The translations under genes were made by a program, and so were the position numbers. Below are positions 5,462-33,233 of a stretch of DNA of 34,454 bases, piece after piece; position 1 is the stretch's first letter, and the number at the start of each line of letters is the position of its first letter. Origin of the DNA: Acidobacteriota bacterium (GTDB lineage Bacteria > Acidobacteriota > Vicinamibacteria > Vicinamibacterales > CAVVIG01); assembly GCA_003222535.1 (NCBI GenBank), contig QHWJ01000355.1:1-34454 (forward strand). The letters are read 5' to 3'. The notes below the pieces were generated by a model, which was not told the DNA's origin, made no database searches, and saw only the letters and a list, made by a program, of their open reading frames with translations.

Positions 5462-5908
5462 GCCTCAACCTGAAAAACTTGCTTCGTTTCGTCAGAAGGC
5501 GGCCTTAGAAAATGTCTGGTGCGTTCCGAAAATCAGGACGAGCGAGTGTACTAAACCGTCAGCGCCCTACCCATTGCTGAGACGACGGCCGATAAGCAGT
5601 AGGGAGCGCTCAGGACCAGAGGCGTTCGCTGAAAGCACCGGCAAACACGCGCGCTGTAGCGCGAACGCTTCGATCCAGGGTTCCAACCGCGCGTCTTCGC
5701 GCGACTTTCGCCTTTGCACTTCCGGCTAGGGCCCGACTCGATCCGTGTGCTAGAGTTCCGCGGTTCGGGCGCTGCGGCTGTTCGCGTCCATCTCCTTACG
5801 AGCAATCGGGTAGTGGTCAGGGCGGCCCTGAAGACCGTCCTAACGGGTTGAAACCGGCTGAGCCATTCGATGGCCGCTTCCACGCTGCGGCCGGTGTTCA
5901 GGGAGGCT
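5462..5908. other. Intergenic region without a credible gene
   Basis: This spacer separates the divergently transcribed sirtuin and M23 peptidase genes and must hold both promoters. No reading frame in it looks like a protein. It contains one half of a dispersed repeat at 5533-5562, a 6-bp GC hairpin with a TCTT loop at 5688-5703 (CGCGCG TCTT CGCGCG) and CGCGCT-GT-AGCGCG near 5648. I saw no tRNA-like cloverleaf and no confident -35/-10 pair. Confidence 0.6.
5533..5562 (+). repeat. 30-bp dispersed repeat, copy 1
   Basis: TCAGGACGAGCGAGTGT followed by ACTAAACCGTCAG matches 28 of 30 bases with 10032-10061 downstream of secA. Only the right half of the longer secA-linked element is present here, without its hairpin-forming left arm. 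Confidence 0.75.
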
Positions 5909-6829: not shown

Positions 6830-6933
6830 CGCTCGGCTGACGCCTTTCTCGCTCGGCTGAAACTTCGCCCTGCGACCGAGCGCGAACCCCTCTAACCGAG
6901 CGTAAACGTAGCGCGGAGGCTTTAGCCGAGCGT
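6830..6933. repeat. Cluster of CGCTCGGCTGA / CCGAGCG dispersed repeats
   Basis: The spacer between the M23 gene and secA holds CTCGGCTGA twice in direct orientation (about 6831 and 6854) and CCGAGCG three times in inverse orientation. It ends in a near full-length element at 6908-6933 (GTAGCGCGGAGGCTTTAGCC then GAGCGT). The same element recurs at 11927-11951, 17492-17515 and 33209-33233. The opposite orientations allow pairing within the transcript. Confidence 0.7.
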
Positions 6934-10111: not shown

Positions 10112-11632
10112 ATGCTGAAAACTGAAGCGTCCTCCCTCGTTTCGACTGGAACCGATCTCGCCACCGCGTTGACGTTCGACGACGTCCTGCTGGTGCCGCG
10201 GCATTCCGACGTCGTGCCGACGCAGGTGGACGTCACGACGCGGTTGACGAGAAACATCCGGTTGAGCGTGCCGCTGCTCAGCGCGGCCATGGACACCGTC
10301 ACCGAGTCGCGGCTGGCGATCGCGATGGCGCAGCAGGGCGGCCTCGGCGTCATTCACAAGAACCTGTCGATCGAGGAGCAGGCGTCGGAGGTCGATCGCG
10401 TGAAGCGGTCCGAAAGCGGCATGATCGTCGACCCGATCACGCTGTCCCCCGCCAACCGAATCCACGAAGCGCTCGATCTGATGAAGAAGTACAGCATCTC
10501 CGGTGTGCCGATCACCGAAGATGGCAGCAAGGAAGGCCGGCTCGTCGGCATCCTGACCAATCGCGACCTGCGCTTCGAGACCAATACCAGCCGGGAAATC
10601 TCGGAAGTGATGACGCGCGATCCGCTGATCACCGTTCCGGTCGGCACCACCCTCGACGCGGCCCGCGAGATTCTGCATCACCACAAGGTCGAGAAGCTGC
10701 TCGTCGTCGATCGCGACTTCCGGCTGAAGGGGCTCATCACCGTCAAGGACATCCAGAAGGCCGTCAGGTATCCCGACGCGTCGAAGGACTCGCTCGGCCG
10801 GCTGCGGTGCGGCGCGGCGGTCGGCATCGCGCGGGACACCGTGGATCGCGCCGACGCGCTCATCGCCGCAAACGTCGACGTGCTGGTCGTGGATACCGCG
10901 CACGGGCACTCGCAGAACGTCCTGGACATGGTCCGTCTGCTCCGCCGCCGCTTCCCCGGCGTCGATCTGGTCGCCGGAAACGTCGCGACAGCCGGAGGGA
11001 CCCTGGCGCTCGTGGATCTGGGCGTCGACGCGGTCAAGGTCGGCATCGGCGCCGGTTCGATCTGCACGACGCGGATCATCGCCGGCATCGGCGTGCCGAT
11101 GATCACCGCCGTGATGGAATGCGCGCGTGCGGCGGCGGCCCGCGATGTCCCCATCATCGCGGACGGCGGCATCCGCTTCTCCGGCGACATCACCAAAGCG
11201 GTCGCCGTCGGCGCGAGCACGACGATGATCGGGAACCTGTTCGCGGGCACCGACGAGAGCCCGGGCGAAATCATTCTGTATCAGGGCCGGAGCTTCAAGG
11301 AGTACCGCGGCATGGGGTCGATCGGCGCCATGCGCCGCGGCAGCCGCGATCGGTACTTCCAGGACGAGTTCGATCTCGAGGCGTCGGGCGGCAGCGAAAA
11401 GCTCGTGCCGGAAGGGATTGAAGGACGCGTCGCGCACAAAGGCAGCGTTGCCGCCATGGTCCACCAGCTCGTCGGCGGCCTGCGCGCCGGCATGGGGTAT
11501 TGCGGGGCCAGGAACATCCCGGCGCTGCAGCGGGAAGCCGTGCTCATTCGGATCACCCCGGCCGGCGCGCGCGAAAGCCACGTCCACGACGTCGCGATCA
11601 CGAAGGAAGCGCCGAACTACCGGTCCGAATGA
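10112..11632 (+). CDS. guaB: Inosine-5'-monophosphate dehydrogenase
   Basis: This 506-residue enzyme oxidises IMP to XMP with NAD+, the first committed step of GMP synthesis. The N-terminus [16 protein letters not shown] is diagnostic. Two CBS domains occupy about residues 105-225, inserted in the TIM barrel as usual. The catalytic loop is [12 protein letters not shown] with Cys318; most orthologues have GIGPGSICTT, so Pro is replaced by Ala here. The flap and active-site residues are in [20 protein letters not shown], and the monovalent-cation site follows in [13 protein letters not shown]. Length and order are normal. The spacer before it carries a dispersed hairpin repeat, so it is probably transcribed independently of secA. 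Confidence 0.97.
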
Positions 11633-11639
11633 ATCGGGT

Positions 11640-11731
11640 AATCGGGTAATCTGGTAATCGGGTAATTGGATTGCTGGATTGCCAGTAATTGGAGTGCTGG
11701 ATTGCCGGTAATTGGAGTGCTGGATTGCCCC
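11640..11731 (+). repeat. Tandem word array: GGTAATCG x4, then 23-bp unit x3
   Basis: Directly after the guaB stop, GGTAATCG-type 8-mers repeat four times. They are followed by about three copies of a 23-bp unit, TAATTGGAGTGCTGGATTGC plus CGG, with small changes. The array fills most of the gap between the convergent guaB and tsaE genes. No arm complementary to it is present here. Confidence 0.8.
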
Positions 11732-11751
11732 AAAGCACGATCGTCCCGACG

Positions 11752-11823
11752 GTCCGGCTGAAGCCGGACACTACCGAAATTTCTCCGCGGGCTTTGCGGG
11801 CTCTGCGTTCATCGTCGTGATCG
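11752..11823 (+). repeat. Composite repeat, copy 1 (palindrome plus CTCTGCG words)
   Basis: The palindrome GTCCGGCTGAAGCCGGAC (11752-11769) is followed by ACTACCGAAATTT and then 9-bp words CTCCGCGGG, CTTTGCGGG and CTCTGCGTT, ending CATCGTCGTGATCG. The same order occurs at 12815-12877 and 12903-12977. On the minus strand the repeat encodes the last residues of TsaE and supplies its TAG stop. Confidence 0.75.
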
Positions 11824-12313
11824 TTCGCGTATCGCCGTCGCCGTGCTGGATCCGCACGGCGACCGTCTTGCCGGAGCGCGAAGGCGGTGCGTCGCGCAAA
11901 GGAGGTGTGTCGCCCGAAGGCGGGATGTAGCGCGAAGGCTTCAGCCGAGCGCCGTCTCTCAGCTTCTCCGCCCACTCGATCGCCATCACGCCGTCCTCGG
12001 CGATTTCATCCAGGCCCAGATCGTCGATCTCGCGCGGGTCGTCCAGGCGATACAAGTCCACGTGAAACAGCGCCAGGCGTCCGCCCCGGTACTCCTGCAC
12101 GAGCGTGAAGGTCGGGCTGCTCACCTCGTCGCGGTGCACGCCGAGTCCCTCCGCCAGCCCGCGCACGAACGCGGTCTTCCCTGCCCCGAGATCGCCGAAC
12201 AGCAGCACGACGTCGCCGGCGGCCAGCGTCGCCGCGAGCTCGCGCCCGACGGCCGCCGTCTCGGCTTCTGAAGTCGTCGTGAATGCGCGCGCCTGTCCGT
12301 GCGTGCCGGCCAT
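11771..12313 (-). CDS. tsaE: tRNA threonylcarbamoyladenosine biosynthesis ATPase TsaE
   Basis: TsaE is the P-loop ATPase that drives TsaB/TsaD in making t6A37 on ANN-decoding tRNAs. The ATG at 12313 gives 180 residues. Visible motifs are the P-loop FGDLGAGKT (39-47), SSPTFTLVQEY (65-75), HVDLYRL (84-90) and VMAIEWAEKL (109-118). The conserved domain should run directly into a final strand, but residues 123-148 are a Pro-rich insert of hexapeptide repeats (PSRYIP, PSGDTP, PLRDAP, PSRSGK) encoded by a dispersed repeat. The family-like strand TVAVRIQHGDGDTR follows it. The last dozen residues and the stop come from another repeat copy. It is divergent from the DinB gene with a 24-bp gap. The core motifs are intact, so the enzyme is probably functional. 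Confidence 0.92.
   Translation of the reverse strand: MAGTHGQARAFTTTSEAETAAVGRELAATLAAGDVVLLFGDLGAGKTAFVRGLAEGLGVHRDEVSSPTFTLVQEYRGGRLALFHVDLYRLDDPREIDDLGLDEIAEDGVMAIEWAEKLRDGARLKPSRYIPPSGDTPPLRDAPPSRSGKTVAVRIQHGDGDTRTITTMNAEPAKPAEKFR
11870..11951 (-). repeat. Dispersed repeat and 18-bp tandem copies inside tsaE
   Basis: The element GTAGCGCGAAGGCTTCAGCC then GAGCG (11927-11951) matches intergenic copies at 6908, 17492 and 33209. It is followed at about 18-bp spacing by degenerate partial copies (CGCCCGAAGG, CGCGCAAAGG, GCGCGAAGG). In the tsaE frame these read as hexapeptides beginning with Pro. The unit length is a multiple of three, so the frame is preserved. Confidence 0.7.
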
Positions 12314-12977: not shown

Positions 12978-13025
12978 AGAGGTTTTTCTGCGCGTTCTGC
13001 GAGCTCTGCGTTCAACGTCGTATTA
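12978..13025 (+). repeat. CTGCG 9-bp word array before nnr
   Basis: CTGCGCGTT, CTGCGAGCT and CTGCGTTCA repeat at 9-bp intervals, then AACGTCG. The same three words in the same order occur at 24120-24150. The array lies 15-50 bp from the 3-prime end of the nnr gene. Confidence 0.7.
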
Positions 13026-13039
13026 CTTCGCAAGCTCCT

Positions 13040-14623: not shown

Positions 14624-14827
14624 CAAGGACACAAAGGAAACAGAGGACACAAAGGGTATATCACAGGCCGGCTCTGCGTCCGACCTCTCTGTCCGACCAC
14701 TAATGCCCCCACCTTCGCGTCCGACCTTGGTGTCCGACTTCCGCGTCCGACCTCTGTGTCCGAACTCCGTGTCCGACCTCTGTGTCCTTTGTTACCTCTG
14801 TGTCCTTCTTCTCACTGTGTCCTTGGT
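14624..14827. repeat. Long imperfect inverted repeat of GGACACAAA / TTTGTGTCC words
   Basis: The left arm AAGGACACA AAGGAAACA GAGGACACA AAG (14624-14653) and the right arm CTGTGTCCT TTGTTACCT CTGTGTCCT (14779-14827 region) are complementary. Each is built of 9-bp words. The loop of about 120 bases is filled by a separate 13-bp repeat. It sits between the divergent nnr and aminotransferase genes, so it occupies the space of both promoters. Confidence 0.8.
14678..14785 (+). repeat. 13-bp tandem repeat, GTCCGACC plus five bases
   Basis: GTCCGACC or a one-base variant begins at 14678, 14691, 14719, 14732, 14745, 14758 and 14771. The spacing is 13 bp except for one interval of 28. The variable five bases are mostly TCTGT, TTGGT or TCCGC. 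Confidence 0.85.
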
Positions 14828-17491: not shown

Positions 17492-17515
17492 CGCTCGGCT
17501 GAAGCCTTCGCGCTA
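17492..17515 (-). repeat. Dispersed CGCTCGGCTGAAGCC element
   Basis: CGCTCGGCTGAAGCCTTCGC GCTAC, read on plus, is the reverse complement of the element inside tsaE (11927-11951) and near gcvP (33209-33233). It lies 11 bp beyond the PQQ-dehydrogenase stop. Confidence 0.75.
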
Positions 17516-17525
17516 CGAGAAGACG

Positions 17526-23967: not shown

Positions 23968-24292
23968 ATCAGCTTCCCTCCAGGCAGCGTTACCTTACAC
24001 CTTTTCCGACTACTCTAGCCGCCTCAAACATGGAGCGCGAGCCTTTTTAGAGCGTGTGGAGAAATCACGTACAACGCAGAAACCGCGCAACCCGCAGGCC
24101 AAAAATGCTCAAGGTTTGTCTGCGTGTTCTGCGAGTTCTGCGTTCAACGTCGCCTTTCTTGATCCGCAGACCGGGTGGCCTCGCGTAGTTCTTCGCGAGC
24201 CAGATGCGAACGCACGGGGGGACGTGCCCCACCTGCCTTACCCGCCCCACCCGACCCACGCGACCCACCCGACCTACCCGACCGACCCGACC
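23968..24292. other. Intergenic region rich in repeats
   Basis: This 325-bp gap between the hydrolase start and the RidA stop has no credible gene. It holds a long word-built hairpin at 24067-24150, a 6-bp hairpin CTCGCG TAGTTCTT CGCGAG at 24180-24199, and a 9-bp array at 24240-24293. The hydrolase promoter must lie in the first 90 bp (TTACCTTACACCTTTTCC region), but I see no convincing consensus. Confidence 0.6.
24067..24150. repeat. Hairpin of GCAGAA / TTCTGC 9-bp words
   Basis: The left arm ACGTACAACGCAGAAACCGC GCAACCCGCAG pairs with the right arm CTGCGTGTT CTGCGAGTT CTGCGTTCA ACGT. The loop is AT-richer. The right-arm words match those at 12978-13025. Confidence 0.8.
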
Positions 24293-24293
24293 T
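24240..24293 (+). repeat. ACCCGACCY 9-bp tandem array
   Basis: Six units at exact 9-bp spacing (ACCCGCCCC, ACCCGACCC, ACGCGACCC, ACCCGACCT, ACCCGACCG, ACCCGACCT) run up to the RidA-gene stop codon. The same words recur at 29469-29508. Confidence 0.85.
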
Positions 24294-29440: not shown

Positions 29441-29468
29441 CGCTGCCTTACCTGTCCTTCCTACCCCA

Positions 29469-29508
29469 CCTGACCTACCCGACCCACCTGACCTACCCGA
29501 CCCACCTA
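29469..29508 (+). repeat. 18-bp tandem (CCTGACCTA CCCGACCCA) x2
   Basis: CCTGACCTACCCGACCCA occurs twice in tandem, then CCTATC. It consists of two 9-bp words and ends at the DUF1553 stop. It resembles the arrays at 20098 and 24240. Confidence 0.85.
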
Positions 29509-33074: not shown

Positions 33075-33208
33075 GATGTCCGAGCGGATTATCGCTCGCC
33101 TGCCGCCTTCGCGCCAGGGGCTTCGGCGAGCCTCGCCATAGCTCGCGGGAACGCCGGGCGAGCGGAGGCGGGGAAGGCCGGGTTCCGCGGTTTCTGCGTT
33201 GTGCGTCC
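33075..33208. repeat. Repeat-rich spacer with GGCGAGC inverted words
   Basis: The spacer holds GGCGAGCCTCGCC, GCTCGCGGG and GGGCGAGCGGAGGCGGGG, partly self-complementary, and TTTCTGCGTTGTGCGTC, which echoes the CTGCGTT words elsewhere. No gene is visible. Confidence 0.5.
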
Positions 33209-33233
33209 GTAGCGCGACGGCTTCAGCCGAGCG
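33209..33233 (+). repeat. Dispersed element abutting gcvP stop
   Basis: GTAGCGCGACGGCTTCAGCC then GAGCG differs by one base from the copy inside tsaE. It ends exactly at the gcvP stop codon. Confidence 0.8.

Follow-up and report, generated by a model that had tools for sequence, protein, structure and literature searches.

REPs with a GTAG head 5' of an imperfect palindrome are described for the REPtron/RAYT (TnpA-REP) systems in the parts of two studies used here (PMC2817692, PMC8266576). According to the relevant sections of one of these studies, their movement is attributed to Y1 (RAYT) transposases, which would cut the single-stranded REP at a CT dinucleotide on its 5' or 3' side (PMC8266576). 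In the sections of a 2013 survey drawn on here, GTAG REPs are mostly intergenic, some lie wholly within ORFs whose products are known (dnaE2 and tRNA pseudouridine synthase genes among them), and intragenic copies occur in several species, most of them in O. terrae (PMC3733652). The same sections report that REP dimers or groups code for 20 to 30 residues, that the GTAG termini often form the TAG stop of flanking ORFs and that the recB genes of two Xanthomonas species carry REPs at about the same site (PMC3733652). Rickettsia palindromic elements are described there as lying in frame within ORFs that likely code for functional proteins (via PMC3733652). A 2025 REP survey included Acidobacteriota genomes; no mention of an "intragenic" or "in-frame" occurrence was noticed in the portions of its text drawn on. 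No report of REPs in TsaE or within genes of Vicinamibacteria was found in a search of the open-licence literature.

The locus compared with these systems lies in a window of 34,454 nucleotides (the whole stretch of DNA analysed) from an Acidobacteriota genome, G000 (8.06 Mb in 450 contigs). A 26-bp dispersed repeat, REP-A, lies in frame within its tsaE gene, which codes for a core tRNA-modifying protein. REP-A shares three traits with the GTAG REP superfamily: the GTAG head (in the tsaE copy), a dispersed high copy number and a position mostly outside genes. Like the intragenic GTAG REPs, as described in those parts of the 2013 survey, the G000 elements are short, GTAG-tagged and mostly intergenic, lie in frame in some genes with a dnaE2-like gene among the hosts, and supply a TAG stop (PMC3733652). 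However, the host here is Acidobacteria-like, tsaE and trmD are targets, half of the REP has grown in 18-bp tandem steps, the same loops are filled in several genera, the heads are mostly GGAG and the hairpin is no better than that of shuffled sequences. In-frame insertion in ORFs is shared with the Rickettsia elements (13 genes here, presumably functional judging from their conserved families), which differ in their host and in the longer palindromic insertions of RPE-1, a separation drawn from the available descriptions rather than from sequence. In-frame REPs within genes are already published, and what is added here is that they are found repeatedly at the same loops across several genera, often, though not always, as the commoner REP type of the host.

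The features of the tsaE region and the REP-A copies of the window are as follows.

10112 to 11632, plus strand: ORF convergent with tsaE, which we take to be guaB (IMP dehydrogenase); used in the tree of relatives; tblastn finds it in 23 of the 24 tsaE loci, counting its own
11751 to 11774, minus strand: REP-B (GTAGTGTCCGGCTTCAGCCGGACC), whose GTAG gives the TAG stop of tsaE; hairpin z -4.62
11774 to 12313, minus strand: coding sequence of tsaE (180 codons), ended by TAG at 11771-11773 (Pfam TsaE, 1.4e-38; TIGR00150, 9.4e-33)
11774 to 11825, minus strand: dispersed repeat D4, from the repeat search, over the C-terminal tail of TsaE (residues 168-180, MNAEPAKPAEKFR)
11867 to 11950, minus strand: whole repeat-derived insert of TsaE, residues 122-149, delimited by alignment and by low AlphaFold2 confidence between helix 115-118 and strand 150-157
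11876 to 11939, minus strand: 18-bp tandem array (TRF, 3.6 copies, 78% matches), overlapping the REP head half
11926 to 11951, plus strand: REP-A copy inside tsaE, GTAG head at 11927-11930 (plus); the minus strand codes for residues 122-129, ARLKPSRY
6907 to 6932, plus strand: REP-A copy, weight-matrix score 33.0
17492 to 17517, minus strand: REP-A copy, score 45.3
33208 to 33233, plus strand: REP-A copy, score 39.6
5655 to 5680 and 33093 to 33118: weak REP-A copies, score 9.0

The best PDB match of the predicted TsaE fold is 6n9a_E, the TsaE of the T. maritima TsaB2D2E2 complex, and 5np9 is also matched. G40, D41, L42, G43, G45, K46 and T47 of the P-loop are invariant in the 23-sequence alignment, as are E113 and W114. 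The AlphaFold2 model computed from this alignment has a mean pLDDT of 83.7. In blocks of ten residues, the core is mostly at 90 or above (82 to 97), and residues 121-150, which hold the insert, are at 52, 49 and 66. The insert follows helix 115-118 and precedes strand 150-157 of the model, and the repeat-coded segment is predicted to be a floppy loop outside the conserved ATPase core. The distance from the EW pair to the stop is 68 residues in G000, compared with 33-61 in the 77 measurable of 80 other loci.

The REP-A copy in tsaE has a position-weight score of 45.5, while 1000 codon-shuffled versions of the gene stay at or below 12.1, and its mismatches to the consensus are confined to the two most variable positions. 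As read from the sequence, the whole REP forms the first unit of the array only, and the further units comprise the head half plus five bases. A preliminary description had read a dispersed element and degenerate 18-bp copies in frame in tsaE as the hexapeptides PSRYIP, PSGDTP, PLRDAP and PSRSGK. The TRF array, the REP-A match and the translation confirm this, the same hexapeptides being obtained at 11876-11939. Its surface position for the insert agrees with the loop of the AlphaFold2 model, and its noncoding repeat turned protein without a frame break is matched by the in-frame copy at residues 122-129. Three refinements apply: the element belongs to the REPs with a GTAG/GGAG head, 12 genes besides tsaE were found to carry it, and the C-terminal tail and the stop codon are repeat-derived too.

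D4 has copies at 11777-11825, 12980-13028 and 24112-24160 of the window. REP-B matches G000 at 151 places, and 22 of the 27 family genomes contain it. The stop codon of tsaE and its last 13 residues are repeat-derived, like the insert. The gap between guaB and tsaE (11632-11729) is partly filled by 8-bp (AATCGGGT) and 23-bp tandem repeats. A structured-RNA reading is not supported, as the window gave no Rfam match at the gathering score.

REP-A is an imperfect palindrome with the consensus CGCTCGGCTGAAGCCTTCGCGCTCCG, derived from 122 of the 125 copies examined after exclusion of those in tsaE, trmD and the deacetylase gene. The opposite strand starts with GTAG or GGAG. GGAG is the commoner head (77 copies, compared with 35 GTAG and 13 others), and the tsaE copy has GTAG. 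The DNA fold of REP-A (-3.8 kcal/mol, z -0.25) is no better than that of shuffles, whereas REP-B reaches z -4.62. At two mismatches or fewer, there are 191 matches in G000, 117 in G005, 23 in G018, 22 in G009, 3 in G006 and 2 each in G021, G022 and G023. The remaining 19 of the 27 family genomes have none at this threshold, and the reversed pattern, used as a control, has no match in any family genome. Over the order, REP-A occurs in 8 of 162 genomes, none of them outside the family of G000. Matches to a sister type, A' (GTAGCGCGAGCCTTTCAGGCGAGC), number 393 in G009, 203 in G023, 63 each in G022 and G000 and 16 in G021, and four more genomes have 1 to 5.

Comparisons of the family TsaE sequences (24 matches, one of which, from G015 (L054), failed the motif and was excluded) showed REP-A in 3 of the 23 readable genes, those of G000 (45.5), G005 (33.0) and G018 (20.3), where loop, strand and frame agree. 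In the remaining 20, no score exceeds -11.6. The G005 insert is a single REP without the extra 18-bp copies, and that of G018 is decayed and longer; the insert is thus missing from most close relatives and varies in length among the carriers, as the preliminary description had proposed to check. Of the four family genomes in which REP-A exceeds 20 copies, three are the tsaE carriers; the fourth, G009, has 22 copies, yet its tsaE lacks the insert. REP-A scores are -5.4 or less in 16 more distant TsaE loci (the readable ones among 18: 14 labelled Acidobacteria or Vicinamibacter-, 1 Candidatus Sulfopaludibacter and 1 "uncultured bacterium") and -12.5 or less in 11 loci from other families of the order, the two sets overlapping in that at least two loci share TsaE tails. 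The preliminary description also held that an insert conserved in distant lineages lacking the element would speak against it; the distant loci have no insert, and REP-A is confined to the window's family. The eight best TsaE loci in the named collection, at 63-68% identity, belong to Acidobacteria or to Candidatus Sulfopaludibacter, which is presumably an Acidobacterium. Two TsaE loci of the window's order have tails equal by eye to those of two named Acidobacteria. These two observations are the grounds on which the host is placed near the Acidobacteria.

In a tree of the TsaE core and GuaB, with the insert excluded, the carriers are not one clade and three changes are needed (p-AU 0.0002). 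The carrier G005 is sister to the non-carrier G006 (99/98), and G006 and G019, which lack the insert, are of the same genera as G005 and G018, respectively. Several branches of this tree are weak, that of G018 included, G003 has no GuaB and GuaB of G019 is partial. The three inserts as one clade are rejected by the tree, with a weak placement of G018, and one gain followed by losses is possible for the inserts of G000 and G005. The nearest relatives of G000 in the comparison are of other genera, and the insertion event is not seen between near-identical strains.

The census of G000 covered 98 of the best 100 of 183 REP-A matches, all but the final pair (on C375 and C378), together with their flanks. 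With the further copies lying in these flanks, it gave 125 distinct ones that have no more than three mismatches. Among these, 17 copies in 13 genes are in frame; they remain from 19 candidates after removal of L113, with scores near zero, and of L096 +0, which reads the same gene in antisense. The genes are as follows.

tsaE
trmD, an NCBIfam equivalog above cut-off
gamma-glutamyltransferase, above the NCBIfam cut-off
dnaE2-like, best match error-prone DNA polymerase below cut-off, with an ORF partial in the stretch examined
fused E1 alpha/beta dehydrogenase
histone-deacetylase-family protein
FadJ-like enzyme
MFS transporter
Fe-S/CCG protein
ASPIC/UnbV protein
amidohydrolase
M14 peptidase
TPR protein

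All 12 genes other than tsaE match a Pfam or NCBIfam family, several under the NCBIfam cut-off (L009, L106 and L110). L106 and L110 have NCBIfam matches only, L097 and L104 Pfam matches only, and L006 is recognised by its TPR repeats and a weak PMT_2 match only. The 13 genes read REP-A in four different frames. The tandem spacings are 30 bp in the MFS and M14 genes, 33 bp in the E1 gene and 18 bp in tsaE, and degenerate units in the UnbV and Fe-S genes are 24 bp apart by eye; all are multiples of three. The GTAG/GGAG head is 5' on the coding strand in 12 of the 13 genes, with tsaE the sole opposite case, a bias to be read with the TGA stop in one opposite frame and the coding-score filter used to pick the genes. 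In comparison with solved structures, TrmD has 43 residues instead of 3 at the insert site, and the FadJ-like enzyme and the deacetylase have 8 and 6 extra residues, respectively. The REP-coded inserts of these three proteins fall between conserved blocks.

A stricter classifier, which misses tsaE, dnaE2 and trmD, placed 14 of 124 REP-A copies in open coding frames, whereas 44% of 4000 positions drawn at random from these loci fall in such frames. Therefore, either selection acts against REP-A insertion into genes or genes are avoided as targets. Among 13 same-strand candidate copies, judged by eye rather than by homology, none was recognised as breaking a gene. Most of these look like gaps between different genes; L075 and L085 are ambiguous, and in L099 the REP is near the ORF start.

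Three further loops carry REPs in more than one genome, in comparisons that left many distant paralogues aside. In the TrmD linker, compared across 26 genomes, elements nearest type A are present in G000 (42.6), in G009 (24.5) and weakly in G018, where the score of 12.0 is about that of the best tsaE codon shuffle (12.1). The G023 linker (20.3) has 3 mismatches to A and 2 to A'. The G022 linker has 3 mismatches to A' when read by eye and no match to the type-A weight matrix, and a score of 2.0 in G006 is suggestive only. All REPs in the linker share one frame, and the G005 linker has no REP. The type agrees with the expectation from the host in G000 and G018 (A or near A) and in G022 (near A'). 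However, the G009 copy has 4 mismatches to A and 8 to A', though its genome has 393 A' matches and 22 of A.

In the deacetylase loop, compared across 8 orthologues, G000 has type A (45.5), and the G005 copy is decayed (21.3; 4 mismatches). The G018 gene (L257) has an in-frame inverted REP pair, GTAG...CTAC, of about 54 bp at the same loop as the G000 REP-A. This pair is REPIN-like, is read in another frame and is a separate event. The other 5 orthologues lack a REP. Among 12 genes for the E1 dehydrogenase, that of G000 has three REP units and that of G005 has one perfect copy, although the two proteins are 84% identical; 8 genes have no REP. Mismatches to A are 1 in G000 and 0 in G005, those in G023 are 2 to A' and 7 to A, and those in G021 are 5 to A' and 9 to A. 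Thus, the REP type in the E1 gene tracks the commoner type of each carrier genome, A' being commoner in G023 and G021. The four E1 carriers (L284-L287) form one clade (100/100). The E1 tree groups G000 and G005 with G023, unlike the TsaE and GuaB tree.

The transposase context differs between the genomes. In G009 (L126), a Y1 transposase gene lies amid 17 REP-A-like matches that are inverted on its two sides save one, an arrangement that is REPtron-like and resembles REPtron/RAYT systems, as do the GTAG head and the imperfect palindrome. A Y1 gene of G023 (L143) is accompanied by three A-like REPs. In contrast to the REPtrons, the single Y1 gene found in G000 adjoins REP-B-like repeats by eye, and no REP-A at five mismatches or fewer is present within 1.5 kb of it. 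None was found at this threshold around the Y1 genes of G000 (1), G005 (3) and G018 (1), where the L120 and L121 stretches are shortened by contig ends. The REP-A mover of G000 may be lost, may be on missing sequence or may be the G000 Y1 enzyme acting on both REP-A and REP-B.

The tsaE insert very probably arose from a REP inserted in frame, which grew by tandem copying and is tolerated in a flexible loop, with the same history in 12 other G000 genes and at the same loops in some relatives. A GTAG/GGAG REP, a short mobile repeat that is mostly intergenic and would be moved by a RAYT-type enzyme, probably landed in the 3' part of tsaE, in the loop that precedes the final two beta strands. The REP is open in the frame used (ARLKPSRY), and the net length would preserve the tsaE frame. 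Slippage could then have multiplied the head half of the REP as an 18-bp, six-codon unit. The peptide would be tolerated and the gene would still function because the flexible loop lies outside the conserved ATPase core. The same process probably acted in the 12 other G000 genes found and at the same loops of some related genomes. The element, its copy number and frame, its absence from most relatives and the recurrence are shown, whereas the mover, the slippage, the tolerance and the continued function are inferred. In favour of this account are the copy number with its empty reversed control, the in-frame copies in 13 genes, the relatives that lack the insert, the presence of the tsaE carriers among the REP-A-rich genomes, the rarity of copies in open coding frames, the tandem spacings in multiples of three, the lack of recognised broken genes, the low-confidence loop next to a confident core and the fold match to TsaE structures. 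The weak hairpin (z -0.25), the lack of REP-A by the Y1 genes of G000, G005 and G018, the majority of GGAG heads, the empty tsaE of G009 and the absence of a near-identical strain pair that shows the event are points against this account.

The recurrence at the same loops can be read either as separate insertions into the same loop and frame or as conversion of an old copy. A single old tsaE insertion inherited by G000, G005 and G018, lost elsewhere and kept REP-like by gene conversion, instead of two or three insertions, is possible, if doubtful. The same strand, frame and loop in all three tsaE carriers would fit such a history, as would the E1 carriers, which are one clade and yet have type A in G000 and G005 and a type nearer A' in G023 and G021. 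However, a single clade of tsaE carriers is rejected, same-genus G006 and G019 lack the insert, and the different REP pair in another frame of the G018 deacetylase loop is a separate event. More speculatively, REPs could be long-lived residents of a fixed set of loops (TsaE, TrmD, E1 and the deacetylase), in which re-seeding or conversion keeps bringing the copy to the current REP type of the host, so that mobile DNA rewrites the linkers of core enzymes without breakage. The E1 clade with its two REP types points in this direction, as do the TrmD copies of G000, G018 and G022, whereas the TrmD copy of G009 is nearer A despite the commoner A' and that of G023 is indecisive. We consider such re-seeding or conversion rather improbable, slightly more so in view of these last two TrmD copies.

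Retention of the REP for use, either by tuning tsaE mRNA or DNA or through a Pro/Arg-rich loop that alters TsaE contacts, is quite unlikely. REPs elsewhere have been proposed to bind gyrase or to act on transcripts. A use would be consistent with the repeated occupation of one loop each in tsaE, in trmD and in the genes for the E1 dehydrogenase and the deacetylase, with the action of both TsaE and TrmD on tRNA position 37, as judged from the family names, and with the REPs in tRNA pseudouridine synthase genes and dnaE2 noted in the 2013 survey, as far as its consulted parts go (PMC3733652). However, the 13 genes are unrelated and use four frames, copies are missing or decayed in near relatives, and the loop has low confidence in the AlphaFold2 model, as disordered loops do. 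An artefact of assembly or binning is very improbable: G000 is in 450 contigs and repeats can mislead assemblers, but inserts of the same class occur in seven genomes (G000, G005, G009, G018, G021, G022 and G023), tsaE keeps its guaB neighbour in 23 of 24 loci, and sequencing reads should exceed the 26 bp of the repeat. A chance resemblance of native TsaE sequence to the repeat, conceivable in a high-GC genome with biased codons, is ruled out for practical purposes by the codon shuffles, the copy number and the relatives, 20 of 23 in the family and the distant loci scored being without it, and these relatives likewise rule out a native conserved TsaE extension.

The in-frame insertion of REP-A, as preferred here, implies that noncoding mobile repeats have become protein in core genes of an Acidobacteria-like lineage. 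The G005/G006 and G018/G019 genomes provide natural filled and empty tsaE pairs within genera that are useful for studying the origin of linkers and the neutrality of inserts, and the recurrence at the same loops makes insertion versus gene conversion directly testable. Re-seeding, if true, would mean that a mobile DNA population keeps rewriting the linkers of core enzymes without breaking them.

Other tandem repeats are also present in the window. Arrays of 9/18 bp of the type CCCACCCGACCTACCCGA are located at 24228-24293 and 29465-29507, and similar arrays are seen by eye beside several G000 REP copies (L001, L014 and L018). A 13-bp tandem repeat, CTCTGTGTCCGAC, extends over 8.8 copies at 14672-14787.
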